A stretch of 41,914 bases of DNA from a virus (IMGVR_UViG_3300023172_000062:1-41914), one strand, 5' to 3'; shown: positions 2,878-40,686, counted from the stretch's first letter. Notes: a model not told the origin generated them from the sequence alone. Program-made: numbers and translations.

Positions 2878-3135
2878 CTATTTGGATCTTTTTATGTCTC
2901 TTTTCAAATACACAACAGCGTCTTCAATTTCTTCAACAGAGAAAGCAATGTCTTCCAACATTCTTTCAATTGAGCCTAATCTAGTGTTGTTGAGGTATTC
3001 ATTATAGCACTCTTCACAGATTGTGTCAATCAAAACTTGCTCGTCGTAGTTTAAATCTGCGTAACTTCTAGGCATCTCTGCGTCAATTTTGAGTTGGTTT
3101 ATGATCCGATCATAAACTTTGTCTGGTTCAAGCAT
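2878..3135 (-). CDS. small acidic protein of unknown function
   Basis: An 85-residue soluble, charged protein I do not recognise, rich in Asp, Glu and Ile, with a central CEEC pair. An upstream in-frame start at 3210 would lie deep inside the preceding gene. The ATG at 3135 sits just before that gene's TGA at 3128 (8-base overlap), which suggests coupled translation, so I chose it. It lies 9 bases before dnaE in the same operon. It might be a small partner of the polymerase, but only position suggests this. Confidence 0.7.
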   Translation of the reverse strand: MLEPDKVYDRIINQLKIDAEMPRSYADLNYDEQVLIDTICEECYNEYLNNTRLGSIERMLEDIAFSVEEIEDAVVYLKRDIKRSK

Positions 3136-7675: not shown

Positions 7676-7700
7676 TGTCACAATTATATCAATTGTGACA
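7676..7700. promoter_or_regulatory. perfect inverted repeat, candidate operator
   Basis: Two perfect 10-base arms, TGTCACAATT and AATTGTGACA, flank a 5-base centre. The repeat covers the -10 box and probable transcription start of the promoter at 7683-7711, the usual place for a repressor site. No C-protein gene is seen next to the nuclease/methylase pair, so the binding protein would be encoded elsewhere or by the host. Confidence 0.7.
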
Positions 7701-7711
7701 ACTTTTGTCAA
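7683..7711 (-). promoter_or_regulatory. sigma70-type promoter for the nuclease-methylase-thyX-dnaE operon
   Basis: A consensus -35 TTGACA (7706-7711) and consensus -10 TATAAT (7683-7688) are separated by exactly 17 bases. It lies just after the terminator of the preceding operon and about 110 bases before the nuclease start. Downstream genes overlap or nearly abut as far as dnaE, so this is the only promoter I see for all nine. Confidence 0.88.
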
Positions 7712-7745
7712 GGTTTTTATTTTAAATAATCTCCAACTCAAACAA

Positions 7746-7781
7746 AAAGACCCCTACATTATAGCAAATGTAGGGGTCTTT
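7746..7781 (-). terminator. rho-independent terminator after nrdJ
   Basis: A 15-base perfect stem (7746-7760 with 7767-7781) has a 6-base loop and is followed on the minus strand by a T-rich tract. It sits 25 bases after the nrdJ stop and insulates it from the promoter at 7683-7711. The stem core is GACCCCTACA. Confidence 0.92.
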
Positions 7782-7805
7782 GTCAACACTTTGTTTAAGC
7801 TTTTG

Positions 7806-16708: not shown

Positions 16709-17524
16709 TTACTCTCCTAAGTTTATTCCTTGATGGAAGTGTGTTTTTTTTACAATCAAACCAAAATCATAACCAGATTCATTCGGATAAATCTTATAAC
16801 AAAAATTCTTCTTTTCTTTAAAGTTGCCTTTGATCAGCGAAATAAGATCAACATCTTTTTCAAGCCTTTCTTTGTTGATGGACATATAATACCAAAACTC
16901 ATTTTGATTGTCAAGCAAAAAATAATCATTTTCAGAATTATTTTCAAAATCATATGATCCAATTGACAAGATCCTATTTCTTTCCATTGAAGAGAACTTT
17001 GTTGCTGTGATCGGCTTTGTGTTCTCAAAGTAATTCAGCATATGGATCGAATAGCTGATTACGTCATTAATCTTATCAAACTTGTTCATGAATGTCAAGC
17101 CTGAAATTGAACTTTCTAATTTCTCATTTGAAATCAAGATAATATCCTTGAACACACCAGACCTTGCATAGTCCTGCAAGGCGTTGAAGATCAGTCTGTG
17201 CTGTAAGGAATACTTCTCATAAAGTTGATCTTCTTCTGGAATGATCAGAACTATCCTGATCTCTGTTTCTTTGAATTGCTCCAAGATCTTCAAGGAACAT
17301 CCGGAGATTGTTCCGGAAGTTGAAACAAAGAAAAGAGTCTCGGAGTGTCTTGGAACAACTTGAATATTGAAATGATCTTCATATTCCTTATGCGATCCTC
17401 TTTCTTCGATCAGAAAGCCCCCTTCCCTTCTTTCTGTGTCGAAAAGATAAAGATTGTATTGAGGATATTGTTTAAACTTTTCTGCGATATTACAACCACA
17501 GTTGCCCAAACCAATCACATTCAT
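16709..17524 (-). CDS. tubulin/FtsZ superfamily-like protein
   Basis: A 271-residue soluble protein. It opens NVIGLGNCGCNIAEKF, like the first FtsZ glycine loop, then NLYLFDTE (nucleotide-binding strand). LFFVSTSGTISGCSLKILEQF at 64-84 stands where FtsZ has its GGGTGTG tubulin signature, followed by strand IRIVLIIPE. Later IILISNEKL, then FDKINDVISYSIHML, match the FtsZ 'IVIPNDRL ... AFxxANDVL' block. The signature is degenerate (TSGTISG), so GTP hydrolysis may be weak. The ATG at 17524 overlaps the pyrF-like stop by 4 bases. Phage tubulins (PhuZ/TubZ) position DNA in cells; that role here is inference. Other Rossmann-like folds cannot be excluded. Confidence 0.72.
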   Translation of the reverse strand: MNVIGLGNCGCNIAEKFKQYPQYNLYLFDTERREGGFLIEERGSHKEYEDHFNIQVVPRHSETLFFVSTSGTISGCSLKILEQFKETEIRIVLIIPEEDQLYEKYSLQHRLIFNALQDYARSGVFKDIILISNEKLESSISGLTFMNKFDKINDVISYSIHMLNYFENTKPITATKFSSMERNRILSIGSYDFENNSENDYFLLDNQNEFWYYMSINKERLEKDVDLISLIKGNFKEKKNFCYKIYPNESGYDFGLIVKKTHFHQGINLGE

Positions 17525-18195
17525 TGTTTCTCTTCCTTGCAAAGTTTTTCATACCATTCCAAAACACTTTCTTTTGGGTCTTCGGAATTGTAAATGCTTC
17601 TTCCAATAATAGGATAATCTGTGAATGAGTTTTCTTCGCAGCCTTGCGCTCCAAACCCCGGAGAGTAGATGATCCTATCTTCTCCCAAGATGCTTGAAAC
17701 TTTCTTGTAAAATTCGTGTTTACTTGGAGGAAGAACAAACCTTTTCACTCCAAACTCTGCTGCTTGCTTGTAAATCTTCAAAGAATCTTCATCAGAAAAG
17801 AAGCCCCCTTCTTCTTTCGAAAACCCTTGATGAGTCATTTTGCCGCCAACAATTGTTTCAATGTTTCTTTTTTTCAATTCCTTCAACCAAAAGTCCAAAG
17901 AGTCCGGTCCAGCAAAAGGAAACAAGATCGCTTCATCAACGCCAGCCATTTTCATAGCAGAAGCAAAGTTCATTCCCATTTGTGGGATGTCGTTTCCTCC
18001 TTTTTGATGATCATAGATCACTTTCTTGTTTGGCGCTCTGAACTTTACCTCATTCACACAACGGATCAAACCAAATGTAAAAACAAGATGAAATCCAATC
18101 TTATAACCATAAACCTCTTCCATATCTCCTGTTTGCTTCATAATCTTAATTGCTTTTTGCATAGGGCAATCAAGAGAGATAACAATCTTTTTCAT
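17521..18195 (-). CDS. pyrF: orotidine 5'-phosphate decarboxylase-like protein
   Basis: OMP decarboxylase makes UMP, the last step of pyrimidine synthesis. The 224 residues form a TIM-barrel pattern: ISLDCPMQKAI at the first strand, YKIGFHLVFTFG (K32), and YDHQKGGNDIP with D62, K65 and D69, which is the Asp-Lys-Asp catalytic set in the 'DHQK..TDIP' branch of the family. The end GFGAQG...YPIIGRSIYNSEDP is the phosphate-binding loop. It sits between polA and the FtsZ-like gene with 4-base overlaps on both sides. With nrdJ and thyX it suggests active pyrimidine supply. A sibling barrel of the same suprafamily, such as a sugar-phosphate decarboxylase, is a weaker alternative. Confidence 0.88.
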   Translation of the reverse strand: MKKIVISLDCPMQKAIKIMKQTGDMEEVYGYKIGFHLVFTFGLIRCVNEVKFRAPNKKVIYDHQKGGNDIPQMGMNFASAMKMAGVDEAILFPFAGPDSLDFWLKELKKRNIETIVGGKMTHQGFSKEEGGFFSDEDSLKIYKQAAEFGVKRFVLPPSKHEFYKKVSSILGEDRIIYSPGFGAQGCEENSFTDYPIIGRSIYNSEDPKESVLEWYEKLCKEEKQ

Positions 18196-24856: not shown

Positions 24857-27043
24857 TTATCGACCATACCCCTTGATTGCATTGATCGCTTTTGTGTTTT
24901 TAGCAACTTCCTTAACAAATTTTTCAAGTTTCTTTTCCATATCACGCCGACTTTTAGGAATATTGTCAAAATCAACTGTGAATGTGTAATCTAAATCGCC
25001 TTCTATTTTGATCTTGTTTAAGTTAATTTTTAATGTATCAGCACCTCTAGTGTTGATTTCTTTGACAAGTTTCGCAATATTGGCTAATTTTTTTATACTC
25101 TTTTCAGCGCTTACACCTTCAAGTGATTTGAGCCCCTCACCTAGGGATGAAATTCCTCCTCCAAGTGCATACAACGCACCACTCAAGGCCCAAAAAGCGG
25201 CTACTACTACTGCAAAGGCAATGGCCCCCATCCCTAGAGATCCCGTGGTCAAGAATTTCCCCAATAAAAATATAGTACCCGTAATCACGGTCAGTCCAGC
25301 GGCTGCTTTGCCCATTGCCTCCCATGAAATAGTTTCCAATGATTTTAGTCCTTCACTAAGTTTTTTAAAGCCAGTGCCCAAAGCAGGCATGATTGTAGTG
25401 CCTAAGAAGTACAAAGCAGCGCCAGCAACTACCAACCCTAATACAACAATCCCTAGAGATTTTAAAAGCCCTACACCACCTGCGGCTGCTGCTGCTCCAC
25501 CACCTACGCCCCCAAAGATCCCCATAAGGCCAACTACCTTACTAATACCCATCAAAGCTAATTTGATGGCCACCAAGGAAATAACCAGTATCCCTAAGCT
25601 AGCAGCGAAAGCACGACCTGATTGATCTGCTTTTTTAAACTTTTCCATGAACTCTGCTAGGTATTTAGCCGTCTTTGAAAGAAAATCAATAACCGGTTTG
25701 AAGGCAAATGCCAAGTTTTGCATTGCCATTTGGAACTGTTCTGAAACTTTTTGCGTTGCTCTTATTCTCTCTTTCATTTGTTCGGCTGAAAGGCCAAACT
25801 TTTCACCTTGCTTTGTTAACCTTTCCAATTCTTCTGCTTCTTTTTCCTGCTCTGTTCTCAAAAGCTTTTGTGCGTCTGTAACAGAAGAAACCCCTAACGC
25901 CTGTGCCATAAACTTCTTTTCAAAACGAGAAAGATCTTGGAATCTCTTACCTGAAAGGGCCATACCTTGACGGATAATATCAACTCTCTCGGACTCCGAT
26001 GCTTTTAAAAGCTCCAGAGAATTGAAATAGTTCCCACCTAAAGCAGCATTCAACTTTCCAACGGCAGAGGCAGCACCTTCAAATGTATCAAATTGCTCTG
26101 AAAATGCTCTTAATTTTGACAATTCCAAGCCTGTCTTCTTTGATTGGATTGCCAACTCTTTGAAAACTTGAATTGCTTTTCCTTTTGTATGAGCAGCCAA
26201 AGATTCCATTGCTGGTCCGAAGTCGGCATCCATCATTTTTTTGAACTTAGGCCCCAACGCAGAACCCAGCCCAAGCAATTCTTTTTGGGTTTCCATTGCC
26301 TGATCTTGGGTCATACCCAAACCTTGAACTCCCATCTCCAAGTTTTTCAAAAAGTTGTCCATACCGAGCCGGCCCATTTGACCAGCTAATAGACCAATTT
26401 CTTTTCTTGTGCTAGCATTCAAGGAGCCAAAAGAAGTAAGTTCGGCAGCAGCATCATTGAATGATTTTCCAAATTCTTCCATTGTTACGCCATACAAAGA
26501 TGCTTGGTTCATTCCATCTGCTAATTCTTGATTATACCTAGACAAACCACCAGTTAATTTTGCAAGGGCTGCTCTTTGTTCGTCGTAAGTCTTTGTTGCT
26601 GCAATACTTAGGTTGATAAGATAGTTTAAAGCTTTCCCCAATGCCGCATATGGGTTTTTAAGTGTTTTCATTACACTTTCTAACTTTGTGTAGACATCTA
26701 TCTGTTTTAAAGTTGTTTTAAAGTTTCTTTCTTTTGATTCTTGTAAAGCTTCTTCTGACTTTTTAAGTTTTTCGTTGGCTTCTTCTAACTCTTCTTCAAG
26801 TTCAACAATCTCTCTAAGTATTTCTGCTTTTTCTTTGGCATCATCCTTCATGTCCGCTTGCAGCTTACGATCTTGTATATCATTTTCTATTCTTTGAGTT
26901 TCAATTTTTAATAGTTTGTTCTGCACTTCTACGGTTTGTTTACTTTGGTTGAGCCTTTCCTCCCTAACTTTCAAAAGTTCTCTTTCTGATGCGATCACTC
27001 TTTGTAGATCTGCTTGAATTTTTGTAAAATCTTGATCTGCCAT
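24857..27043 (-). CDS. tail tape measure protein
   Basis: Sets tail length and is ejected with the DNA. The 728 residues comprise a long N-terminal coiled coil (about 10-110), a helical middle, hydrophobic segments about 475-620 with glycine/alanine-rich stretches that may insert into the host membrane, and a short C-terminal region. The heptad block EGLKSLE is repeated (SEGLKSLETIS and GEGLKSLEGVS). It lies directly after the tail assembly chaperone pair, as is universal in long-tailed phages. At roughly 0.15 nm per residue it would suit a tail of about 110 nm. A late-promoter-like motif lies at 27085-27093. Confidence 0.92.
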   Translation of the reverse strand: MADQDFTKIQADLQRVIASERELLKVREERLNQSKQTVEVQNKLLKIETQRIENDIQDRKLQADMKDDAKEKAEILREIVELEEELEEANEKLKKSEEALQESKERNFKTTLKQIDVYTKLESVMKTLKNPYAALGKALNYLINLSIAATKTYDEQRAALAKLTGGLSRYNQELADGMNQASLYGVTMEEFGKSFNDAAAELTSFGSLNASTRKEIGLLAGQMGRLGMDNFLKNLEMGVQGLGMTQDQAMETQKELLGLGSALGPKFKKMMDADFGPAMESLAAHTKGKAIQVFKELAIQSKKTGLELSKLRAFSEQFDTFEGAASAVGKLNAALGGNYFNSLELLKASESERVDIIRQGMALSGKRFQDLSRFEKKFMAQALGVSSVTDAQKLLRTEQEKEAEELERLTKQGEKFGLSAEQMKERIRATQKVSEQFQMAMQNLAFAFKPVIDFLSKTAKYLAEFMEKFKKADQSGRAFAASLGILVISLVAIKLALMGISKVVGLMGIFGGVGGGAAAAAGGVGLLKSLGIVVLGLVVAGAALYFLGTTIMPALGTGFKKLSEGLKSLETISWEAMGKAAAGLTVITGTIFLLGKFLTTGSLGMGAIAFAVVVAAFWALSGALYALGGGISSLGEGLKSLEGVSAEKSIKKLANIAKLVKEINTRGADTLKINLNKIKIEGDLDYTFTVDFDNIPKSRRDMEKKLEKFVKEVAKNTKAINAIKGYGR

Positions 27044-27084
27044 TTGACAAAGTTCCTTAAATTAGTCATTTCTATAGACCACAC

Positions 27085-27093
27085 AATAAATAG
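27085..27093 (-). promoter_or_regulatory. candidate late promoter motif CTATTTATT (tape measure)
   Basis: Reads CTATTTATT on the minus strand, 41 bases before the tape measure ATG, in a non-coding gap. Same motif at 31869, 34579 and 37575. Confidence 0.6.
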
Positions 27094-27106
27094 ATGGGAA
27101 GTAAGA

Positions 27107-27322
27107 TTATTTAGATTTGTAGGCTTTTTCGATCTGTTCGTTCTGACGTTCGATCTCTTCATTCAATCTTTGAAGAAACCATCTTCTGAGGGTGATAGGT
27201 AGGTTGTAAAGTTCAAAAAGAGACCATCCACCGTGGTACTTCAAGAGAAACATCTCTTCGTATACGTGCTGGATGTATTCATCACTTAGGCCAAAAAAAG
27301 TCAACAGTGAGAGGCACCTCAA
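27107..27322 (-). CDS. tail assembly chaperone, second part (frameshift product)
   Basis: About 61-71 residues: YEEMFLLKYHGGWSLFELYNLPITLRRWFLQRLNEEIERQ, a helical motif typical of the second chaperone ORF ahead of tape measure genes. No ATG start exists; the only in-frame start is TTG at 27322, with a weak AGAGG. The frame overlaps the gp26-like gene by 41 bases around a run of seven T (27293-27299 on the minus strand). A shift there (net +1, or -2) would fuse the two, giving about 337 residues. Whether the stand-alone TTG start is also used cannot be told. Confidence 0.72.
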   Translation of the reverse strand: MRCLSLLTFFGLSDEYIQHVYEEMFLLKYHGGWSLFELYNLPITLRRWFLQRLNEEIERQNEQIEKAYKSK

Positions 27323-28121
27323 TGACCTCTAAGTGTTCGCATTCCCTGCATTCAAATTCTGTGGCCATTTGAACATCTGGTGCTAATTTATCATAAACCT
27401 TTCTCAAGAACCTTGCATCCGATGCTGGCATATGATCAACAAAGAACTCAATCTTTTTCTTGTCTTCGTCACCGTTGAGGGCAACGATTGTTTCTTTTAA
27501 CTGATCTGTTAGAGTTGTGTTTTTCTTTTTCTTCGAATTAAAGTCAAAGTTTTTCAAGATCTTCTTTTCTTCTTTACCTGTCAAAAGCTTTACTTCACAA
27601 GTGTACTTAACCAAAGGAAGCTGAACAAGAAAAGTGCCTCTTTCTGTTTTTTGAGCCTCTTCCAACTCTTCGCTTTCTTTTGTTTGAAGACATTCTTCAA
27701 TGTCATATTCTTTCTTTTCTTTTGCACCGCAACTAGGGCATGTAATTTCAACTTCATAGTCTGAGCCGTACCCTGCAACTCTGGCATTCAAAAGAATAGC
27801 ATTCTTGTCTCCAACAAGAAGATCATCAACCCTTAATCTTTTATCAACCAAAAGGGATTGAATCAAGCGATCCAAAACCACTTTCTTTTTGATCAAATCA
27901 GGGTTTGTCAAAAGGTCTTCATCTTTAGCTGTCATCATTCTGATTTCAACTGCGTCTAAGCCATGGAGAGGGTGCCCTTCCAAATAAAACTCTCCCTTTG
28001 AAGGGAGTTCAACAAACATTGTAGGAAGGACAAAGGAAAATTGATTTTCTGCAAAGGCAGGAGCCGGCGCTTCGCTAGTAGGATGAGCGCCAAGCCGTTC
28101 TGAATTGTTTCTTAAAGACAT
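27282..28121 (-). CDS. gp26-like tail/baseplate assembly protein with zinc ribbon
   Basis: A 279-residue protein. LPSKGEFYLEGHPLHGLDAVEIRMMTAKDEDLLTNPDLIKKK matches the N-terminal pattern of the T4 baseplate (gp26) family, which is widespread in myophages. A zinc ribbon is suggested by CPSCG near 145 and CRECE near 265. It lies between tube and tape measure, the position of tail chaperones. The last codons sit on a T7 slippery run that would allow fusion with the small downstream frame. GAGGTG precedes the ATG. A late-tail assembly chaperone is the likely role. Confidence 0.87.
   Translation of the reverse strand: MSLRNNSERLGAHPTSEAPAPAFAENQFSFVLPTMFVELPSKGEFYLEGHPLHGLDAVEIRMMTAKDEDLLTNPDLIKKKVVLDRLIQSLLVDKRLRVDDLLVGDKNAILLNARVAGYGSDYEVEITCPSCGAKEKKEYDIEECLQTKESEELEEAQKTERGTFLVQLPLVKYTCEVKLLTGKEEKKILKNFDFNSKKKKNTTLTDQLKETIVALNGDEDKKKIEFFVDHMPASDARFLRKVYDKLAPDVQMATEFECRECEHLEVIEVPLTVDFFWPK
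27293..27299 (-). promoter_or_regulatory. T7 slippery run for programmed frameshift
   Basis: A run of seven T, read as TTT TTT TGG in the gp26-like frame. A net +1 (or -2) shift enters the frame of the following small open frame (next codons GGC CTA AGT). The gp26-like stop is four codons later. Tail chaperone genes just ahead of tape measure genes commonly use such shifts. Confidence 0.65.
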
Positions 28122-28147
28122 TAATCACCTCATAAGTCTATTTTATT

Positions 28148-28804
28148 TTAAACGTCCGGGAGACGGTCGCCACTCAAAGTTCTTGCGCGACCTGCTTGCC
28201 GGTCTGCATCCGAAGTGAGACCGCCGTAAGATTGGTCAAGAACACCCCTAAGTCCCGGCTGAATTTCTGCCCAGTCGTAGCGAATGTCGATATTGGGCAT
28301 AACAAAATCTTCTGCATCGTAGGAGAATTCACCACCAAAGTTAACTTTTGTGATAAAAGGATTGTGGAATGTGTAAGTTTCCAAAACGCGATTCTCTGCG
28401 TCCAGTTGGAAAACCTCCAAGTTACTCATAGCAACTACTGCTTTCCCCTTAGTAAGACCAACGGTAGCATCGGGCAGACTTTTTGGGTAAATATAGCCCG
28501 CAGCATAAATTGCGTTCTGAAGGAACAAGGCAGCGTTTTGAACATCTCCATCGTCTGCATAGTCTTTTGCAATATCCATAAACTCAATGTTAACAATATT
28601 CCACTGTTGGGTTCCAACGGGAAAATGAAACTCATGACCCAAGATCTTGTGCTGTTTGTCCGGCATTGTAAGTTCGGGTCGGGTAATTTTCCTCAACAGG
28701 TAAGGATAAAGAACCCTACCGTTTCCAACCTCTGCGACAAACTTGAATTGCCGCTTCGGTTGGATTGTGCTTTGGTGCCAAAATCTATTCTTTGTTCTAG
28801 CCAT
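28148..28804 (-). CDS. gp19: tail tube protein, gp19-like
   Basis: Forms the inner tube of the contractile tail. The 218 residues include ITRPELTMPDKQHKILGHEFHFPVGTQQWNIVNIEFMD, the tube-family pattern in which a strand pair precedes a W-centred motif, and AMSNLEVFQLDAENRVLETYTFHNPFITKVNFGGEFSY, which resembles the C-terminal strands of gp19. Slightly longer than T4 gp19 (163). It follows the sheath gene by 44 bases, the normal sheath-tube order. AGGAG lies about 11 bases before the ATG, a slightly long spacing. Confidence 0.88.
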   Translation of the reverse strand: MARTKNRFWHQSTIQPKRQFKFVAEVGNGRVLYPYLLRKITRPELTMPDKQHKILGHEFHFPVGTQQWNIVNIEFMDIAKDYADDGDVQNAALFLQNAIYAAGYIYPKSLPDATVGLTKGKAVVAMSNLEVFQLDAENRVLETYTFHNPFITKVNFGGEFSYDAEDFVMPNIDIRYDWAEIQPGLRGVLDQSYGGLTSDADRQAGRARTLSGDRLPDV

Positions 28805-28848
28805 TTATTCATATTCTCCTACTTTTATTATTAACTAGTTCTTTTATA

Positions 28849-31830
28849 TTATTCTGGAAACTCTGCACCAGTGTTTGTGATAATGAAGTCCAGAGCAATA
28901 AACTCAATCGCTCTTGCTGGTTTAATGAAAAGCTTTGCATAAAGAATGTTTTGGTCAACAAGGTCAGGTGTGGTGGTTGTGTTGTCCAAGACAAATCTGT
29001 AATCTACCAGACCCAATCCATCTTTCACTCCTTCCAGAACTTCGTTTGCTCTTCTAGAGAAGTCAGACCACGTTGCTTGAACGTTTTGCTCGAAAAGAAC
29101 AGTTTTTGCAATTGCCGAAATTCTTCGCTTCAGGAAGATAAGCAGTCGTCGAACATTAATCCTATCCAATGCCGACCTTTCCAGTTGAAGGGTTTTCTGT
29201 CCGAAGACCACGATACCTTCTGCGGGGAAGTTAGCAATGGGGTTAATTCCGTTATCGTAAAGGTCATCTCTCTCAGAAGAAGTCAATCTATCTTTCACGT
29301 TGACAACGGTCACACCAGCCAGACCGGAGGAAAGACCACCTCGGTTGAACCCTGCCGGAGCAAACCAAACATCAGAAGTTTGTTTAACTCGCCCAAACAC
29401 GCCAAGCATCGCAACGGAGGGGGGAACAGTAACAGTTGCGTCATTTCTTGCATCAACAATATCAACCCAAGGATAGAACGTGCAAGCATAAGAGTGATTG
29501 ACCTGTGCCAAGTCGCCCCGTCTGTGGTTGATTGCACCAGAAACAGTTCCTCTTTTCGCGTTTGTTCCAACCTCGGAAGGTTTGAGAACTTCAAGCGGTC
29601 GATATTGAGAATCCAAATCAAGAACTGCAAGCATATCGCCTCTTTCACGAGCATAATCAGCCAGTTGAACGTTCAAGTTGGGTTCCATCAGGCCGGGAAC
29701 TGCTGCAACATCTGCGTCCAAGAACTCAGGATCTTTGAACATTTTGATAGCCGTGAGGACGGAGTACCAAGCATAGTTTGTTCGGCCATCATTTGCAGCG
29801 CCACCGTCCAATTCATCGATGGAGAAAGGATCTTTTTGTTTGATGTCCAGACCATCAAAACCACCGTGGAGAGGCATCGTAAACTTATTATAACCAGCGT
29901 CCAAAACAATCTTCCAACCTTCGGAAGTGTTGCTGTAAAGGCGCGTCCAAGAGGCTGCTGCAACGTTGGCTCCCTGCGGCTTGTAGTAAATACCAGTAGC
30001 AGAAATAGAAGAGCCGCCTGTGCGGTTTGTATTAGCGTACACAGCATCATCTTGCCACCCTTTTGCAGAAGAAGAAGCTTGTCGAACGTCATCCAAAGAG
30101 AATGCGAAAGTGTGAACAGTTCCAGTACCTTTTTCCCAAGGATCAATTCCGGCTCCAGTTTTGCCTTCCAGTGGATAAGTAAGGTCCAAATAAGCTCTGG
30201 AGTAGTAACGACCGGTATCTTCGCGTGTCGTTCGAACACCAAAGTAAGCCCCTCTCGCCAATCCGCGAGTAGCGTTAGAGGCAGTAACACGAAGAAGATA
30301 ATCAGGCCACTCTAGGGAACCAGTAAACGCTTGGTTTTCGCCGGCGTTGTTTGACACAATGCAATCTACATCTCCAGTCGCGTTAATGTCATACGCCACT
30401 GAAGAGGAAGCGTAAGAACCGGACCAGTTAAGATATCCGGTCGCAGGATCAAGAGCGCCAGAACAAATTTGAAACTTCTGTCGTCGAGCCGGCCCCAAGA
30501 AGCCAAACGGAACCAGTTCAGGATTTGCGTTACCTGCCTTTACGGCTGGGTGCATTTCAACTCGAATATAGCGAGACCGGTTTGGAAATTCACCAACAAC
30601 ATCAAATTTATCAGTTGTCTGATCCAGCTTAAGATATTGATCTCCAATTCTTCTAGCAACATAATCAGAAGAACGAGGATTGAGATTGAGGTTATCAAAT
30701 GCTTCCAAGATTTCTGGAGCATCATCACGATCAGAAACCCCGCGAACCTGAACACTAAAAGTAGGATAAGGATCTGCTGCGGAATCCACTTTAGTATATC
30801 GAATATTTGAGATAGAAACTTTAAGGTTTTTCGAAGCCCAGCTTCCCTCGGTCAGGCCAACAAGTCTGAACAATCTCTGGGGAGGGTTATCAATCGGGTC
30901 AAAAGAGCCGGCTGCTCCCAAGTCTTGCGAGAATACATATCCAGTCTTTGCAGCTTGTGCGGGATAACGATAATCAGCTTTGTTGTTTTCGGTTTCTTTA
31001 TCCAGCGCTGTGATGAAAGCAAGAGTGTCTGAATTAGAATCTGCATCAGCCAATTTCTTGATGTTGTCTTCAAAGGTCTCACCAACCCAGAAAAGCTCTC
31101 TTTTATCATTCAAAGCAGAGTTACAAGCAACTGGGCTTGTGTTCATTGCTTTACGGATAAAGTTTGCCTTATCCGGGTTCAAAGAGATTTTATATTGTTT
31201 TTTCTGAACTTCATCATATCCAGCAGCGATAGAAGATGTAAAATACAAATCAATGTCTGCTGTGCTCATTTTGCCCGTAAACTTACCCAAAAAGTGAGTT
31301 GCAGCATCTGAACCTTGTCCGACAGCCAATCCGGCCTTTTCATCAATGTAGAAAACAGCAGCAAGAGAGCCTGTTCCGTGCTCACCGCTAGAAGCTGAAG
31401 GTAACAGCCAAAGGCCATAAGCACCGCCGTTGGCTGCTAAGTCAGAATCAGGTGTAATATCAGTTGTTTTCCAACCAGCATAGCCGGCCTCTGATGCTTG
31501 TGGGTGTTGGTATCCGCCCAATCGGATAAAAGTAACAGGAGCAGCGTTTCTCAAGTAAGCAACAGCAGCGTGTGCTCCATAGTGGGGGGAAGTTGTGTTT
31601 TCATCTCGCCATCCGTCCCCTGCTGAAACTCCTCCAGCAGCAGGAACGCCAAAAACTCGAATAAACTCATCAACAGAACTAACAACAACCGGTTTCATCA
31701 GAGGCCCTTGCTGGGAACGCCCAACAATAACAGGACCAACATTGGAAAGGATTGGCTCGTCAATGAAGCTTTGATCGATCTCTTCAATTCGAATTCCGGG
31801 GGATCTAAATCTAAAATTCTTAGCGGACAT
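28849..31830 (-). CDS. gp18: tail sheath protein, gp18-like, enlarged
   Basis: Contractile sheath subunit. The N-terminus FRSPGIRIEEIDQSFI with VGPVIVGRSQQGPLMKPVVVSSVDEFIRVFG is the classic sheath signature. The C-terminal domain contains RLTSSERDDLYDNGINPIANFPAEGIVVFGQKTLQ, then RINVRRLLIFLKRRISAIAKTVLFEQN, the inter-subunit linker region. At 993 residues it is about half again longer than T4 gp18 (659), with large beta-rich insertions between about 130 and 680 that probably lie on the outer surface. A late-promoter-like motif (31869-31877) lies 38 bases before its ATG. Confidence 0.95.
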   Translation of the reverse strand: MSAKNFRFRSPGIRIEEIDQSFIDEPILSNVGPVIVGRSQQGPLMKPVVVSSVDEFIRVFGVPAAGGVSAGDGWRDENTTSPHYGAHAAVAYLRNAAPVTFIRLGGYQHPQASEAGYAGWKTTDITPDSDLAANGGAYGLWLLPSASSGEHGTGSLAAVFYIDEKAGLAVGQGSDAATHFLGKFTGKMSTADIDLYFTSSIAAGYDEVQKKQYKISLNPDKANFIRKAMNTSPVACNSALNDKRELFWVGETFEDNIKKLADADSNSDTLAFITALDKETENNKADYRYPAQAAKTGYVFSQDLGAAGSFDPIDNPPQRLFRLVGLTEGSWASKNLKVSISNIRYTKVDSAADPYPTFSVQVRGVSDRDDAPEILEAFDNLNLNPRSSDYVARRIGDQYLKLDQTTDKFDVVGEFPNRSRYIRVEMHPAVKAGNANPELVPFGFLGPARRQKFQICSGALDPATGYLNWSGSYASSSVAYDINATGDVDCIVSNNAGENQAFTGSLEWPDYLLRVTASNATRGLARGAYFGVRTTREDTGRYYSRAYLDLTYPLEGKTGAGIDPWEKGTGTVHTFAFSLDDVRQASSSAKGWQDDAVYANTNRTGGSSISATGIYYKPQGANVAAASWTRLYSNTSEGWKIVLDAGYNKFTMPLHGGFDGLDIKQKDPFSIDELDGGAANDGRTNYAWYSVLTAIKMFKDPEFLDADVAAVPGLMEPNLNVQLADYARERGDMLAVLDLDSQYRPLEVLKPSEVGTNAKRGTVSGAINHRRGDLAQVNHSYACTFYPWVDIVDARNDATVTVPPSVAMLGVFGRVKQTSDVWFAPAGFNRGGLSSGLAGVTVVNVKDRLTSSERDDLYDNGINPIANFPAEGIVVFGQKTLQLERSALDRINVRRLLIFLKRRISAIAKTVLFEQNVQATWSDFSRRANEVLEGVKDGLGLVDYRFVLDNTTTTPDLVDQNILYAKLFIKPARAIEFIALDFIITNTGAEFPE

Positions 31831-31868
31831 TCAATAATCTCCTATACATCAAATATCATTTTTCTTAT

Positions 31869-31877
31869 AATAAATAG
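31869..31877 (-). promoter_or_regulatory. candidate late promoter motif CTATTTATT (sheath)
   Basis: Reads CTATTTATT, preceded by CAAC, 38 bases before the sheath ATG in a non-coding gap of 68 bases. Confidence 0.62.
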
Positions 31878-31898
31878 GTTGATCAGGCTCAAAAAGAA

Positions 31899-32780
31899 TT
31901 ATTCTCCAAAGTTTCTATAATCTTTTACAGGATCAGTTCGATCATTCTTTTCACCTAAACTAGATTTCTCTCTCATAAACCTAACTTGAACTGGGTTTTC
32001 TCTTTCAACCAAGAAAGGCTTCGATTGGTTGTCGCCTTCGCCAACAAGGTAAGCAAAGACATTTATATTTACTTTTGCTTCGTATGTTCTTTCTTCCGAG
32101 CCCATATTCTCAACATTGTTTGCAATTCCAAAGTCATCTTGGATAAAAGCTTCATAAAAGTGCCCATTCCTAGAAAGAGGGAAATAGTTAATTCCACCAA
32201 CATTGGAAATAAATGGATTAATCATTTGGTTCATTTGCTGTTGGAACTGAGCTTTAATGCTAATCTGATAATTTGCTTCAATGTAAACCGGGAGCGGAAT
32301 AGAAATTGTTTTAAAAACATCTTTTTCTTCTCTTTTCTTTGGAAGAACAAAGTTGATTTGTCTTATTCCGGGGTCTTTAAAAGCGTCAGCGTTTGCAAAG
32401 TTTGCTGTTTTGTTTTGATTTAGTTTCTTTGTGATCTTTACTGCTCCGCCTCTATAGTCGTTGATCTCCGGCATTGGAGCAAAAAAGACACCGCGTTTAT
32501 TCCTAGGTTTTGTAACGCTTGTTCTAGCAATTGTCATGATAGGGTAGATCAATCCACCTTCGGAATCGCGCAATTCTTTGTCGTTCTTGGATTGAAAAGA
32601 TCTTTCAGCGGAAGTCCAAATAACTGGAACTTTTTCAAAGCCTTTGTTTGTTTCTATGGAAATATTAAGGTGCTCATCAACCCACTCAAAAACAGAGAAG
32701 TCAATGTTTTCCAAGTTTGAAGGCTGAAGATAAACAACTTCTCCATTTTCTAGTTTTTCATCTCTTTTTTTATTGTGCAT
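31899..32780 (-). CDS. gp15-like tail completion / sheath terminator protein
   Basis: A 293-residue protein. The order matches T4 gp15: VPVIWTSAERSFQ near the start (compare the gp15 'VPITY' block), a strand set with FVLPKKREEKDVF, then YIEANYQISIKAQFQQQMNQMINPFI, the dimer region, and MGSEERTYEAKVNINVFAYLVG near the end. It lies between the gp14-like gene and sheath, where tail completion genes belong. It caps the tail tube and sheath before joining to the head. Sequence similarity is modest and judged from pattern. Confidence 0.8.
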   Translation of the reverse strand: MHNKKRDEKLENGEVVYLQPSNLENIDFSVFEWVDEHLNISIETNKGFEKVPVIWTSAERSFQSKNDKELRDSEGGLIYPIMTIARTSVTKPRNKRGVFFAPMPEINDYRGGAVKITKKLNQNKTANFANADAFKDPGIRQINFVLPKKREEKDVFKTISIPLPVYIEANYQISIKAQFQQQMNQMINPFISNVGGINYFPLSRNGHFYEAFIQDDFGIANNVENMGSEERTYEAKVNINVFAYLVGEGDNQSKPFLVERENPVQVRFMREKSSLGEKNDRTDPVKDYRNFGE

Positions 32781-33261
32781 TGAAAGTTCCTTCTCTTGCT
32801 CGGATACATTCTGCCATTATCTCAAAAGACTTGTCTCCTCGTCCAAACAGCCACTTGGGTTCTGTTAAGGTGACAATTTCATAAAAAAGATCTGCATAAA
32901 GAACAAAATCCCCTTCCCTAACAAAAAGATTTTGATCTTCTGTTAATCTTCTTTTGTGAAAGTTGATTGAGATCTTCTGCAAGCGATCAATTCCGTATCC
33001 TGTGTTGTTTGTTGCCTGTGAGTCCCACTTAACCATTGCGTGAACCCTGACAGGAGGGAGAAAGGTTTTTTCCATAGACTCTCCATAAAGAGGATGGAAG
33101 TTTGTCAACTCCAAATCAATAGGATAATAAAGGATAGTTTGCCCAATAACACGCTCGATCAGTTCATCGTTAACTTGCTTGACCAGATCTCTTTCCTTCT
33201 GGTTCAAGAACATTGGAGGAGGCGGAGCGTCTGGCTGTGACCATTTGTTATTTGTTGACAT
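32770..33261 (-). CDS. gp14-like neck protein
   Basis: A 163-residue protein. ILYYPIDLE near the start and INFHKRRLTEDQNLFVREGDFVLYADLFYEIVTLTEPKWLFGRGDKSFEIMAECIRAREG follow the gp14 neck family ('R(R/K)RF...PREGDLIYFP..LFEIKFVE.....LG....Y.L.CE'). It joins head and tail. It overlaps the downstream gp15-like gene by 11 bases and follows the gp13-like gene by 11 bases, consistent with the T4 order 13-14-15. Confidence 0.82.
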   Translation of the reverse strand: MSTNNKWSQPDAPPPPMFLNQKERDLVKQVNDELIERVIGQTILYYPIDLELTNFHPLYGESMEKTFLPPVRVHAMVKWDSQATNNTGYGIDRLQKISINFHKRRLTEDQNLFVREGDFVLYADLFYEIVTLTEPKWLFGRGDKSFEIMAECIRAREGTFNAQ

Positions 33262-33272
33262 TTGTTACTTCC

Positions 33273-34547
33273 TTATCCCATCAAAATGTAATTTGGAGCA
33301 GACGTGAAAACCTTTTGCGCATTCTCTGTCATTTGAGCATCTGATTCAATTAATTTTGGATAAGTCATCTCATCCAAAATTGTTTTTAATTCTTCTCTTA
33401 ATTTATCTTGCTCTTCTTTGCCTTGTGAAAGCAATTCAGAATGGTTAAGAGTAACAGATTCACCCGGAATTGGAAGAGTGCTGAATTTTCCTCGGATCTG
33501 TCCCAACATTTCTTTTGAAAGAGCCAAAGCAAACCTTCTGATCCACTGCTTTCCGATCGAGTTGATGCTTTCAAATGGAATGTTCGCAAAAGGAAGGGTG
33601 TTCATATTGTTGACACCATCAACACCAGAGGGGCGATCAGCATCGTCTTCCCAAGGATTTGAATCCACTGTAAACTCAAACCACATCTTTTTATTGTTCA
33701 AAAGAGAAGGTGGAATTGGGAAAATCCTAATCTTGTTGTTTCTAATCTCATAAGAATATTGAGACGTTCTGGTTCTAATTGCATCTTCATACTCGGCTGC
33801 TTGAGCTTTGTTTTGCCAAACTGGTACCAATTGGAAAGTAGAATCGTCTGCAAACTGCCCATAGGTGCTCAAGTTACCAGTTGCGCCCAAGCCGCCATAA
33901 TACCCATAAAACCGCCAGATCGCTCTAGGAGAAAGATAATAAACTCTTCTGATCATGATTCTTTTGTTTTCATAATCAATTGTCGCCGGCAGTGAACCGG
34001 ATGCAACAGAAGAAGAGATTGCGGAAATCAGATCATAATCCTGTACATCATCTTGCAAAGTAAAAGAAGAGGAATAAAAGTTTTGAGTGCCACCAACAGT
34101 TGCTTCTGTGGCTGCTGCATCTCCAAACCTTCTAGCATAACCATAAGAGAATTTTGTGTACTTTAAAGCCACGTTTCCGCCGCTTAAAGACGAAGAAAGG
34201 GTTCCTGCCTTGTATTCCCCCAAATGATCAAAAGAAGCCGTTGTAGCCCCCAAAGAATCGCCCAGAGAGTTCTTTGCTTGGTGGATGTTGACAAGGTAAG
34301 AATATTCTAAAGTTGCTTCTTCATAAGCAGTATAGATTTGTTTTTCTGATAATTCAATTTCAAGAAGATCACCACCCAACTTACGGTAAGTGTAGTTAAC
34401 CTGATCTGCCGCTCCGGAAAGAAAGTCATTGGAATTAAGATAGACCCCAAAAGGAACTGATGTGCTTGTTACATTTGCAACAGACCCAGTTTCAGGTAAG
34501 ATATTTTTGCTTGTTTGACTGACAGGTGTTAATGTGGGGATAGCCAT
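33273..34547 (-). CDS. gp13-like neck/head-completion protein
   Basis: A 424-residue protein between the capsid and gp14-like genes. YTYRKLGGDLLEIELSEKQIYTAYEEATLEYSYLVN resembles head-tail connector adaptors; later parts are beta-rich with FTLQDDVQDYDL and IRIFPIPPS. Longer than T4 gp13 (309), with insertions. Function as neck protein is inferred from position and this pattern. A late-promoter-like motif lies 31 bases before its ATG (34579-34587). Confidence 0.75.
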   Translation of the reverse strand: MAIPTLTPVSQTSKNILPETGSVANVTSTSVPFGVYLNSNDFLSGAADQVNYTYRKLGGDLLEIELSEKQIYTAYEEATLEYSYLVNIHQAKNSLGDSLGATTASFDHLGEYKAGTLSSSLSGGNVALKYTKFSYGYARRFGDAAATEATVGGTQNFYSSSFTLQDDVQDYDLISAISSSVASGSLPATIDYENKRIMIRRVYYLSPRAIWRFYGYYGGLGATGNLSTYGQFADDSTFQLVPVWQNKAQAAEYEDAIRTRTSQYSYEIRNNKIRIFPIPPSLLNNKKMWFEFTVDSNPWEDDADRPSGVDGVNNMNTLPFANIPFESINSIGKQWIRRFALALSKEMLGQIRGKFSTLPIPGESVTLNHSELLSQGKEEQDKLREELKTILDEMTYPKLIESDAQMTENAQKVFTSAPNYILMG

Positions 34548-34578
34548 TCATTAGATCTCCCGATTTATAAGGTTTTCT

Positions 34579-34587
34579 AATAAATAG
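34579..34587 (-). promoter_or_regulatory. candidate late promoter motif CTATTTATT (neck)
   Basis: Reads CTATTTATT, preceded by CAA, 31 bases before the gp13-like ATG. It follows the capsid-gene terminator. Confidence 0.62.
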
Positions 34588-34601
34588 TTGAAGACAAAAG
34601 A

Positions 34602-34630
34602 AAACCCCCAACCTGAAAGGAAGGGGGTTT
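34602..34630 (-). terminator. rho-independent terminator after major capsid gene
   Basis: On the minus strand AAACCCCC pairs with GGGGGTTT, with an inner CCT/AGG extension across a short mismatch and a small loop, then TTCTTTTG. It lies about 40 bases after the capsid stop and just before a candidate late promoter. Confidence 0.82.
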
Positions 34631-34668
34631 CAATAAAAGGAGGGTTGTAATTTTAACCTAAATTAAAA

Positions 34669-36468
34669 TTATGCTCCGCTTTCGCCGTTAAGTCCGCGAC
34701 AAACAACCAGACCGTACATATCGGGTCGGACCATTTTTTTGGCGTAACGGGTCATGACACCCTTTCGGGGCACGAAGTCTTCGACACCAAAGATGGTCGG
34801 GGTCACTTGCAGGGGCACATAAGGTGCGTACACATAACCGCTTTCAAGGAAGCTGGAACCTTTACGACCAACAAGAATCACGTTCTTGAGGAAGTAGGGG
34901 TCAACGTAAACGTCAAACTTCTTGGAAAGGTTGCCAGTCTTGACAGCACCAATGTCGCCTTTGGCAACATCAGCAGTGACAGAAGCACGGAAACCAGAGG
35001 TAAACTCAAGAATGTTTGCAACCTGCGGCGAACAAACAATGAAGTTTGCACCACCACGGAGAGTTTTGGTGTGGATTTCTGCGGACACATCGTTGATGGT
35101 CTCGACAAGAGTCTCATACCACTCGGAAACAGTACCGGTGAAGTCCGGAGCAGCAGTGTTTGCACCAACTTCTGCGCCAGTGGTTCGGTCCACAAAAAGA
35201 CCGGGTGAACGCGACCAGTAACGGGTAGCAGCAGTAGCGCCGTTCACGAGGTCATTCAGAAGTTCACGGTCAATTTCAAGAGCAATCTGCTCGGAAAGGA
35301 TCGAGGTAAGTTCAACTTCTGCATCCAAGTTGTGGTATGCGTTGAGGTCTTGACCAAGTTCCGGAGACCATTTTGCTTTGAGCTTTTTGGTTTGCGCGGT
35401 GACAGCAACCGAATCAACTTTAATATCGATTTCGGGGATCAAGTCGCGAGCCCTGCCATCAAAAGTACCAGCAGCAGAACCAGCACCTTCAAGGCCCCAA
35501 GGATCTCCACCGACAACGGAACCAATCGCGCCGCCGATATCAAAGTCGTCTTTAACCGGAGCAACCAGATTACCTTGTTTTTCAACGCCGGTTTTAATTG
35601 CCAAGTTAGCACCCCAACCAAGCTCGGACACAAAGTAAAGCTTAAGCAGAGTCGAAGTCTGCTGGGTCAGGCGACGAATTTGCTTGGTGTTGCCGGAAGC
35701 GATGTCAACAATTGCATCAACACCACCAGATACAAATTCTGCCAACTGGTCGCCAGTCATAGTAAACGCCGGCAAGTTATCATAGTCAAGCAGATCATCA
35801 GTAGTTTCGCCGAATACTTCCAGATCGGCGCGAGTAAGAGCAATCTCCCACAGGTTGAGAGAGGTCGAGCCGGAGAGGTCCGGGTCAAAGCGAATTTTCT
35901 TTGCTTCTGCATCGGTGATGGCGTCCAGATCAATGTAGTCAATAGCAGAGACTGCACTGGAGGTAACCCGACAAGAAGCGGTAGGGGAAGCATAAGTTCC
36001 ACCCATCAAGTAGGGGCCACCGTTATTGGTAGTGTAGGTACTATCAATGATGTTGACACCATCTCTGATGCCTTTTGCCACTTTGTCAGTACCATAAATG
36101 GAGCGACCTGCGGTTTCACCAAGTCGTGAGTTGGTGTAGGTAAAGTCCATGAAGAAGATCAGGCCAGAGGGGAGGCTCATGGGCTGAACTGAAACGATAT
36201 CGTTAGCAACGAGACCGCCAAAGACACGACGAACAATCGGGAAAGCAACAGCAGAGAAGCCTTCCACATCACCAGCAGCCATCGAGGATGCTTCTTTCAA
36301 GAGTTGTTTTGCTTGGTTTTCAAGCAGACGAGACATCGACTGACGCTGATAGTCAGAAGTGAGACCTTCGAGAAGACCAGTTCTTTCCCACTTGGAAAGA
36401 AGTGCTTTGCCTTCTTGTGCAAGGTCACGCTCAACAATGCCTTCTGTCAAAGTTTTCAATACAGACAT
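34669..36468 (-). CDS. gp23: major capsid protein, gp23-like
   Basis: Main shell subunit with the HK97 fold. The 599 residues (T4 gp23: 521) include LLENQAKQLLKEASSMA, then FPIVRRVFGGLVANDIVSVQPMSLPSGLIFFMDF, the gp23 signature around its E-loop and 'VQPM' block. Later AKWSPELGQDLNAYHNLDAEVELTSILSEQIALEIDRELLNDL and the C-terminal VTPTIFGVEDFVPRKGVMTRYAKKMVRPDMYG are also typical. The first ~65 residues are likely removed by the gp21-type protease. It follows the scaffold by 24 bases and ends at a terminator. Confidence 0.97.
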   Translation of the reverse strand: MSVLKTLTEGIVERDLAQEGKALLSKWERTGLLEGLTSDYQRQSMSRLLENQAKQLLKEASSMAAGDVEGFSAVAFPIVRRVFGGLVANDIVSVQPMSLPSGLIFFMDFTYTNSRLGETAGRSIYGTDKVAKGIRDGVNIIDSTYTTNNGGPYLMGGTYASPTASCRVTSSAVSAIDYIDLDAITDAEAKKIRFDPDLSGSTSLNLWEIALTRADLEVFGETTDDLLDYDNLPAFTMTGDQLAEFVSGGVDAIVDIASGNTKQIRRLTQQTSTLLKLYFVSELGWGANLAIKTGVEKQGNLVAPVKDDFDIGGAIGSVVGGDPWGLEGAGSAAGTFDGRARDLIPEIDIKVDSVAVTAQTKKLKAKWSPELGQDLNAYHNLDAEVELTSILSEQIALEIDRELLNDLVNGATAATRYWSRSPGLFVDRTTGAEVGANTAAPDFTGTVSEWYETLVETINDVSAEIHTKTLRGGANFIVCSPQVANILEFTSGFRASVTADVAKGDIGAVKTGNLSKKFDVYVDPYFLKNVILVGRKGSSFLESGYVYAPYVPLQVTPTIFGVEDFVPRKGVMTRYAKKMVRPDMYGLVVCRGLNGESGA

Positions 36469-36492
36469 TTGTTTTCTCCTTAATTAATAATT

Positions 36493-37542
36493 TTAGTTTT
36501 TAATTCCTGCCAATCTCTTCCAACGGCTAGAGATTGCTTCTTCAATGGTCTCCTTGTTTTCTTTTCTTCGAGGAGCCACTGTCAACAGACTTCGTTTTTC
36601 GACTGCTTCGCTCAATGATTTTGGAGCAACTCTGTTGCTTCCCATTGAACTTTGTGATAATGTCTCAAAAATTATCTTGGCCTGTTCTTCATTCTTGGCG
36701 CTTGACAAACTTTCGGCAATCTTTTGTTTTTGCCGCTCATTAAGGGAGTCGTTCATCAGGGCCTTGTTGGTATACATCAATTTTGTGTTGTCTAATTTAA
36801 CTTTTTCAAAACTTTCTTTCAGTTTCTTAAAGTAATTCTCATATTTTTTGTTTTTGGCTTCAAGATCTTCAATGATCTCAACTGCTTCTTGCATAATGCC
36901 TTGTTGTTTTTCGATCTTGTCTTCATATTTTTCTTTGATTCTTTCAAGATCCATTGCCAATTCCATTTCAGAGTCGGTGAAAGCACCAACATGTCCTGTG
37001 GGTTGGGTTTTGTAATCCAAATAGAAGCCTTCTTCCAAGAAAAGTTCATCATCCAATTCAATTTCTTCTTCAAGCTTGTCTTTACACTTCTCACATTTAC
37101 AATCCGAAGGGCATTTAGCTTCTTCAAGCTTTTCTTCTTCGTCTTCCATATAAACCGGCTCATCTTCATCTTTTTTGTGAGGGCCGCCGCAGCTTGCTTC
37201 TTCCAGAACTTCCGGCTCTGCAATCAGAAAAGACTTTCTCTCTGCCAGAACACCTTCAAACCTTTTGTTGATCTCTTCTTCCAATTGCTGAAGATCGATA
37301 GAGACCATTTGAGGCTCGACATCAGAAGTTCTGTGTGCGAACGGAATTTCCTCTTCCAATGCAGGTTCCAGATCACCATTGCCAACTTCTTCGCCAGCAG
37401 GCTCTTCTTGTTCCAAAAGTTGATCCAAAGTAGAACGAACTTCATCAGAATACTTTTCAATGATTGCTCTTTCAGCGTTTTGAATTGCAACTTCTTTTAA
37501 TGCCTTTGCATCTACGATTGCTTGCTCTAACAAAGAAGACAT
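36493..37542 (-). CDS. gp22: prohead core scaffold protein, gp22-like, with Cys cluster
   Basis: Internal scaffold around which the capsid assembles, later cut by the protease. The 349 residues are very acidic and helical. NTKLMYTNKALMNDSLNERQKQKIAESLSSAKNEEQAKIIFETL is the conserved gp22-family block near the C-terminus. An unusual central segment CPSDCKCEKCKDK resembles a metal-binding cluster and is not part of T4 gp22. It has a late-promoter-like motif 32 bases upstream (37575-37583). It precedes the capsid gene as in T4. Confidence 0.92.
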   Translation of the reverse strand: MSSLLEQAIVDAKALKEVAIQNAERAIIEKYSDEVRSTLDQLLEQEEPAGEEVGNGDLEPALEEEIPFAHRTSDVEPQMVSIDLQQLEEEINKRFEGVLAERKSFLIAEPEVLEEASCGGPHKKDEDEPVYMEDEEEKLEEAKCPSDCKCEKCKDKLEEEIELDDELFLEEGFYLDYKTQPTGHVGAFTDSEMELAMDLERIKEKYEDKIEKQQGIMQEAVEIIEDLEAKNKKYENYFKKLKESFEKVKLDNTKLMYTNKALMNDSLNERQKQKIAESLSSAKNEEQAKIIFETLSQSSMGSNRVAPKSLSEAVEKRSLLTVAPRRKENKETIEEAISSRWKRLAGIKN

Positions 37543-37574
37543 GTTTTATACTCCTAGTAAACTTAAATTTTATA

Positions 37575-37583
37575 AATAAATAG
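37575..37583 (-). promoter_or_regulatory. candidate late promoter motif CTATTTATT (scaffold)
   Basis: Reads CTATTTATT, preceded by CAA, 32 bases before the scaffold ATG. A similar GTATTTATT lies at 37595-37603. Confidence 0.62.
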
Positions 37584-37613
37584 TTGTTATTTCTAATAAA
37601 TACTTTATTTTGA

Positions 37614-40006: not shown

Positions 40007-40441
40007 TTATCCAATTCCCGCAGAGCCAGACCAGTTTGAACCAGACGGGCTAATGTTTGTAACTCTTTCAACAGGAATTGAAGTTAAAGCAGCATAAACA
40101 GAGAAGTCAGCAGTATGTGAGCCGTCTGACATAAGGTGGATTTCTGTGCATTTAATGTCAAGCTCCAAATAGCCGTTCCCATCTTTCTCTGCGTGGACCA
40201 CAAAGTAATTTGAAACTTCATCACGAACACCTCTAGCAGACATTGCAAGGCGCATATCTTCGTTTGCTGTTTGCTCATTGTTTGTCAATACGATCTTTTT
40301 CGTGACAAAGGGAAAGGTAATCTTCAAGGGTGTTACTGCGGAACCAGAAGCTGGAGCAGTTGAAGATGTTAAAAAAGGCTTCCCTGAGACCTGATAACTT
40401 CCAACATTGTGAAGTCCAACGTCATAATATTTCCAACTCAT
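40007..40441 (-). CDS. small beta-sheet virion protein, unknown function
   Basis: A 144-residue protein starting MSWKYYDVGLHNVGSYQVSGKPFLT, beta-rich, with repeated Ser/Thr/Gly and no hydrophobic segment. Its ATG overlaps the bS21 gene's stop by 4 bases. It may be a decoration or fibre-base protein of the cassette. No family is recognised. Confidence 0.78.
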   Translation of the reverse strand: MSWKYYDVGLHNVGSYQVSGKPFLTSSTAPASGSAVTPLKITFPFVTKKIVLTNNEQTANEDMRLAMSARGVRDEVSNYFVVHAEKDGNGYLELDIKCTEIHLMSDGSHTADFSVYAALTSIPVERVTNISPSGSNWSGSAGIG

Positions 40442-40686
40442 TTTGATTTATTCCTTTTTCTTGTTTTGAACTTTTCCAACTGCTTTGCAGCTTTCCGAGC
40501 GTCTCTTTCTCTTTGTCTTTGCGCTCTTTCGCGCTTTCTTCGCTTTCTTACAGAAGGTTTAAGATATTCTTTTCTTTCCCTTGCTTCTTCAACGATCCTT
40601 TCTTTCTTGCATTTCTTGATGAATCGCCTAACAAGGTTTTCTTCTGTTTCATTTTTTCTCTTAAAGATTTTTACGTTTGTAGCCAT
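40438..40686 (-). CDS. rpsU: ribosomal protein bS21 homologue
   Basis: An 82-residue, very basic protein. ENLVRRFIKKCKKERIVEEARERKEYLKPSVRKRRKRERA matches bS21 ('ALRRFKR.CEKAG...E.RRRE.YEKP...RKR'). bS21 lies near the mRNA exit site and helps the Shine-Dalgarno/anti-SD contact. Phage-encoded bS21 is known from some marine phages and from very large phages, where it may replace the host copy on ribosomes. The C-terminal tail is extended and lysine-rich. It sits in the head module rather than the early region, with ATGA coupling to the next gene. Confidence 0.88.
   Translation of the reverse strand: MATNVKIFKRKNETEENLVRRFIKKCKKERIVEEARERKEYLKPSVRKRRKRERAQRQRERDARKAAKQLEKFKTRKRNKSK

Follow-up and report, generated by a model that had tools for sequence, protein, structure and literature searches.

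A two-part candidate late promoter ahead of virion genes in a large group of T4-related phages

Which signal switches on the virion genes of a T4-related phage, and which protein reads it, is the question raised by a nonamer, CTATTTATT, that recurs in non-coding gaps of the viral DNA analysed here. The whole stretch (IMGVR_UViG_3300023172_000062; 41,914 nt; hereafter the window) is a fragment, its DNA polymerase gene being cut at position 1. All of its large genes lie on the minus strand, and its content includes a T4-type capsid protein, tail sheath, tube, UvsX, replicative helicase, ribonucleotide reductase and prohead protease, along with ribosomal protein S21 and six tRNAs. A similarity search with the capsid protein returned Mel-JY01, immuto and RM378 as the closest named phages, and therefore the window phage looks like a phage of the Far-T4 type. 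In T4, gp55 (region 2) and gp33 (a flap binder that mimics sigma4 and reads no DNA) make up a split sigma acting at -10-only promoters (PMC2988020, PMC7892883), and the late promoters are without a -35 element (PMC2988020). Roux et al. (2015) did not detect the T4 transcription-regulation core genes in Far-T4 phages, whose transcription pattern was unknown (PMC4360716). The Far-T4 phages and RM378 resemble the window phage as a capsid-related group; a promoter or sigma system is not described in that work (PMC4360716). A preliminary description of the window had proposed that the nonamer could be a modified T4 late box recognised by a sigma-like protein of the phage.

The nonamer is present in four exact copies in the whole window, all on the minus, that is gene-sense, strand (27085, 31869, 34579 and 37575; Table 1), against 0.67 copies expected, and none of 100 shuffles reached four. 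Its last T lies 41, 38, 31 and 32 nt ahead of the ATG, respectively. The preliminary description had reported these four identical copies in non-coding gaps, 31-41 bases before start codons and missing from early gaps, and our measurements and scan of the window bear this out: every late-region gap of at least 60 nt holds one copy (4/4), and no early-region gap, longer ones included, holds any. When the four gaps were simulated 20,000 times under a Markov model, a 9-mer common to all four never arose and an 8-mer arose once. Copies with one mismatch are not enriched in the window (20 versus 16.7 expected), and the pattern CAANNCTATTTATT gave zero matches when the whole window was scanned. Two further claims stood in part. 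CAA, said to precede three copies, lies directly 5' of those at 34579 and 37575, while the sequence at 31869 is CAAC-CTATTTATT. As for the supposed targets, PHROG matches identify the sheath and neck genes and position suggests the scaffold gene, but the putative tape measure gene, which encodes 728 aa, could not be identified as such by PHROG or Pfam. The capsid gene (34669-36468) is presumably read from the scaffold promoter. The copy at 27085, ahead of the 728-aa gene, is the weakest of the four and falls outside the top 14 of a matrix trained on relatives. Its gap measures only 63 nt (27044-27106), because a conserved gene, the 71-aa ORF at 27107-27322, whose family comprises 41 sequences, fills part of it.

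Table 1. Coordinates of promoter elements and genes discussed in the text (window positions unless another record is named).
Feature	Coordinates	Strand	Remarks
-10-type box CTATTTATT	27085..27093	-	before 728-aa gene (no family match); no upstream block
-10-type box CTATTTATT	31869..31877	-	before tail sheath gene; site also ahead of the sheath gene of 18 relatives
-10-type box CTATTTATT	34579..34587	-	31 nt before neck/head-tail adaptor ATG; best window score, 26.4, with relatives-only matrix
-10-type box CTATTTATT	37575..37583	-	before putative scaffold gene; such sites ahead of the homologous gene in about 40 relatives
-35-type block TTCTTTT	31892..31898	-	degenerate (T run kept, GG lost); 96th percentile
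-35-type block GGGGTTT	34602..34608	-	full GGNNTTT match, N14 spacing; top percentile
-35-type block AGTATTT	37598..37604	-	one mismatch to GGNNTTT, right spacing; 97th percentile
One-mismatch copy GTATTTATT	37595-37603		overlaps AGTATTT block 37598..37604
Sigma70 promoter, 12/12	3001..3029	-	replication region
Sigma70 promoter, 12/12, TTGACA-17-TATAAT	7683..7711	-	early gap
Sigma70 promoter, 12/12	7758..7786	-	early gap
728-aa gene	24857-27043	-	no PHROG or Pfam match
Tail sheath gene	28849..31830	-	PHROG 23, E 6e-62
Neck/head-tail adaptor gene	33273..34547	-	PHROG 211, E 7.5e-13
T4-type major capsid gene	34669..36468	-	PHROG 138, E 6e-71
Putative scaffold gene	36493..37542	-	named by position alone (precedes capsid gene); no family match
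Sigma-like gene immuto35A_152	L122:29106-29828
Sigma-like gene of Mel-JY01, 158764-159534	L120:13764-14534

The same signal is widespread among relatives of the window, for which we assembled 80 IMG/VR loci (911 kb) with capsid proteins 56-62% identical. In these, CTATTTATT occurs 93 times in sense and three times in antisense orientation, and ACTATTTAT is the commonest of all 9-mers. Taking relatives and window together, CTATTTAT lies in 141 sense gaps versus three antisense gaps, at a median of 31 nt from the start codon, and the sites precede homologues of the scaffold gene (42), the sheath gene (19), the neck gene (14), the 728-aa gene (5) and others, window included. The consensus of the box is CTATTTAT(T/A), with an A immediately before the C at 81% in the relatives, this being the sole conserved base of the CAA. 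It is not the T4-type -10 box TATAAATA, which is found 23 times in sense orientation in the relatives, fewer than the 67 occurrences of its complement. The position of the box before late virion genes sets it apart from the sigma70 early promoters. CTATTTAT is very probably the -10 box of a late promoter, and from these comparisons we hold with high confidence that CTATTTATT marks the late promoter of virion genes across a large T4-related phage group, most of whose members are uncultured.

Alignment of the sites in the relatives revealed a second conserved element, with GG at -21/-20 and TTT at -17/-15 counted from the C. With TATTTAT as the -13/-7 box, this upstream block therefore falls at -35/-29. 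After removal of near-identical sites, GGNNTTT was found at exactly -21 (14 nt upstream of the box) in 36 of 115 sites, and control counts at 18 other offsets averaged 0.56 with a maximum of 2. It accompanies 16/34 scaffold, 7/16 sheath, 4/12 neck and 9/43 other sites; about two thirds of the CTATTTAT sites are without the full block, and in the window one site of four, that of the neck gene, has it. A matrix trained without the window placed the neck, scaffold (19.1) and sheath (17.3) sites at ranks 1-3, above the null maximum of 16.4. Applied to four held-out long relatives, the same matrix gave 21 matches, all in sense orientation (shuffle, 2), of which 18 lie within 90 nt ahead of a start codon, those of the scaffold, sheath and neck genes among them. 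The looser pattern GGNNTTT-N14-CTANTTA occurs 48 times in sense and never in antisense orientation in 572 kb, and it recurs 3' of the region-4 gene described below in 28 of 43 distinct loci, half of these 28 having an altered -10 (CTAATTAC, CTATTTAC). The full promoter reads GGNNTTT-N14-aCTATTTAT(T/A), after which come an A/T-rich stretch and then a short GA-type segment, in which transcription probably starts. The motif, its two-part structure and the late genes that it precedes were observed directly, and we consider it highly likely that this structure is the late promoter of the window's clade.

As a possible reader, one family of 79-96 aa emerged when profiles of the gene families of 13 genomes were compared against sigma factors. 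It represents sigma70 region 4.2 (Pfam Sigma70_r4, E 2e-10, above the cut-off; E 2e-5 against solved RpoH/RpoD region 4), carries four conserved cysteines at its N-terminal start and has 284 relatives in viral contigs. While it matches region 4.2 of sigma70 (RpoD/RpoH), the phage protein differs from RpoD in standing alone, in its recognition helix and in the associated -35 sequence, which is GGNNTTT and not TTGACA. Region 4 as a separate polypeptide was thus found in the relatives rather than in the window itself. At 76 of 77 loci the region-4 gene is directly preceded by a gene for a protein of about 110 aa, and the two reading frames generally share 4 nt. This neighbouring protein ends in an acidic-hydrophobic tail, xIFDLIEEExPEL. 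That both genes exist and are linked in the relatives is a direct observation. Three relatives (G001, G002 and G004) carry the pair some 2.6-3.5 kb past the polymerase gene, so that in the window's own genome we infer the region-4 operon just outside the sequenced stretch, about 3-4 kb past its left end. Compared with gp33, gp55 and sigma factors, the neighbouring protein matched none of them (gp33 hhalign 0.2%), its tail being no more than reminiscent of those with which T4 gp33 and gp55 bind the clamp; its AlphaFold model (pLDDT 77) had no fold match in the PDB. The 78-aa 'sigma factor' that adjoins gp55 in S-PRM1 was likewise inspected and is not region-4-like. Directly after the region-4 gene, one of the relatives (G002:73973-74599) and further relatives encode an acidic protein of about 200 aa, which begins with a LLKEGTVRRFMKLA-type motif and has its own late promoter.

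We propose that the system is a variant of the phage late-sigma switch. Early genes would be transcribed from ordinary sigma70 promoters, and later the host RNA polymerase would be reprogrammed by a phage-encoded split sigma. The small region-4 protein would bind the beta flap and recognise GGNNTTT at -35, and TATTTAT at -10 would be left to a separate phage region-2 protein. The late promoter 3' of the region-4 gene would serve the next gene. To this split-sigma reading we assign a probability of about 0.5, and recognition of the late promoter by a phage-encoded factor of one kind or another appears likely. The role of the region-4 protein as the -35 reader, the existence of a phage region-2 partner and any role of a sliding clamp are what we infer here; a region-4-type HTH could also be part of an ordinary activator. 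Neither the window nor 20-21 related contigs, all of them fragments, yielded the gp55-like gene that the preliminary description led us to look for (gp55, PHROG 234). Sigma70_r2 gave no match in 20 related records, and Pfam, PHROG, HMMER and profile-profile searches found no region-2 sigma in the window or in the long region-4-bearing contigs. For the gp45 sliding clamp, PF02916 matches T4 alone and not the relatives, the complete genomes of Mel-JY01 and immuto included; a diverged gp45-type clamp in the relatives is possible.

The proposed switch may be compared with two known systems. As at T4 late promoters, late virion genes are preceded by an A/T-rich -10 box just before the start, and the host polymerase is assumed to act. 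Unlike in T4, the box is TATTTAT and not TATAAATA, a -35 block is present, homologues of gp55, gp33 and gp45 were not detected here, and the relatives encode a real sigma region-4 HTH, to which gp33 is structurally unrelated. The idea of an altered T4 late box with a phage sigma-like reader survives in so far as the late promoter is distinct from sigma70, and falters on the differing box and the -35 block; its gp55-like part fits immuto and Mel-JY01 better. The two-subunit sigma SigO-RsoA of Bacillus subtilis divides regions 4 and 2 between its proteins (PMC8103513) and resembles the proposed switch in having region 4 as its own polypeptide, but it is bacterial and serves a small stress regulon.

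The alternative that survives best, although we regard it as rather unlikely, is that one complete, strongly diverged phage sigma comprising regions 2 and 4 is encoded outside the sequenced fragments, the region-4 protein being a regulator unconnected with it. Immuto and Mel-JY01, two cultured relatives with capsid and neck genes related to those of the window, lend this weight: they have TATTTAT upstream of late genes (12/18 and 7/12 upstream regions examined, respectively) and encode an unannotated sigma-like family of 240-256 aa (Table 1), for which viral contigs contain at least 404 relatives. When T4 gp55, the RM378 sigma and combined profiles were run against all ORFs, this family alone stood out. 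It can be aligned with gp55 region 2, with weak sequence support (hhalign 10-12%, gp55 only), and nearly all top PDB matches of its AlphaFold model (pLDDT 82) are sigma factors (best E 0.02; probabilities of 0.97 for sigma32, 0.96 for SigH and 0.92 for SigI6). In RM378 an annotated sigma factor adjoins the capsid gene, and the upstream regions are without the TATTTAT pattern. However, a search of 21 region-4-bearing contigs of up to 107 kb did not turn up the sigma-like family, and the region-4 protein was found neither in the complete genomes of Mel-JY01 and immuto nor in 18 other records with the sigma-like family, one weak match with internal stop codons being disregarded. The -35 block is seen at 0/21 sites in immuto and 1/19 in Mel-JY01, so that these two phages are T4-like in having no conserved -35 element, whereas the window's clade has one. 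Counted over whole records, GGNNTTT-N15-TATTTA occurs 10 times versus 1 in the control in 16 region-4 records and 7 times versus 8 in 15 sigma-family records; the association of the region-4 protein with the -35 block is correlative and confounded with shared ancestry, and only two complete genomes represent the phages that lack the protein. We tentatively suggest that the late genes of a large aquatic clade depend on a phage-specific split sigma with a free-standing region-4 subunit dedicated to a new -35 element, and that sister lineages use a one-protein sigma at -10-only promoters.

Quite unlikely, in our estimate, is that the host sigma reads the late promoters, with the region-4 protein as an activator or appropriator at -35 in the manner of MotA/AsiA at T4 middle promoters. 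The negative searches for a phage region 2 in the window and related contigs are consistent with this, and sigma70-dependent transcription is known for T4 middle and Ma-LMM01 late genes (PMC5780444). Against it, the window's early promoters are perfect copies of TTGACA-17-TATAAT: there are three 12/12 matches, all within 1-20 kb, and between 22 and 41.9 kb no sigma70 match exceeds 10/12, which places the late promoters outside the sigma70 type. TATTTAT also misfits TATAAT, as no hexamer register keeps both A2 and T6. Moreover, the same core is used by a Flavobacterium phage and a Microcystis phage, and these hosts have sigma factors of different specificity. The ribonucleotide reductase gene is followed by a gap in which two of the perfect sigma70 promoters, at 7683-7786 (-), lie 75 nt apart, and the first is overlapped by a long terminator-type hairpin.

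An action of the motif in the RNA, as a leader for translation, processing or stability, or its identity as a terminator tail, is very improbable. The motif does lie 15-60 nt ahead of the ATG, and some sites (neck, post-capsid) directly follow terminators, but its N14 spacing to GGNNTTT is fixed across unrelated gaps, and the leaders of the scaffold, sheath and 728-aa genes fold no better than shuffles. Only the pre-neck terminator stands out, a hairpin at 34601-34631 (-) after the capsid gene (-18.6 kcal/mol, z -2.8) with a descending arm that contains GGGGTTT. Terminator and neck-promoter -35 block overlap here, the G-rich arm and the T run belonging to both, and many relatives show similar arrangements. 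The chance that a T4-type late box on the opposite strand fires away from the genes is next to negligible: TATTTAT is the complement of ATAAATA and TATTTATA the exact reverse complement of TATAAATA, but antisense RNA would be implied upstream of every late gene in phages with nearly all genes on one strand, and the GGNNTTT before the box, the GA after it and the 31-nt spacing are all oriented to the downstream gene.

A literature search, whose limited coverage does not amount to proof of novelty, returned no description of this promoter or of late transcription in Far-T4 phages. What our results add for the Far-T4 phages is a defined promoter sequence, the genes under its control and candidate readers, namely the free-standing region-4 protein of one branch and, in another, the sigma-like family of immuto and Mel-JY01. 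These candidates are open to in vitro tests and, in the case of immuto and Mel-JY01, to tests in cultured phages. If the split-sigma reading is true, two designs of late transcription exist within one T4-related lineage, and the region-4 protein would be a natural counterpart of T4 gp33 that reads DNA, with a bearing on the origin of gp33-type sigma4 mimics.

Several other genes deserve mention. A ribosomal protein S21 homologue lies between prohead genes at 40438-40686 (-), and a similar place is annotated for it in Mel-JY01. Near DNA polymerase-type genes, 16709-17542 (-) encodes a conserved 277-aa protein without a weighty Pfam or PHROG match but with a tubulin/FtsZ-like pattern (IGLGNCGCNI..., TSGTISG..., GVFKDIILISN). 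In a relative, G002:12692-15844 is a single gene of 1050 aa with an SbcD/gp47-type nuclease start and a length that could take in a gp46 part, making a gp47-gp46 fusion possible in this clade. The replication region of the window also holds a gene of the orotidine-5'-phosphate decarboxylase family at 17521-18195 (-) (Pfam E 2e-11).
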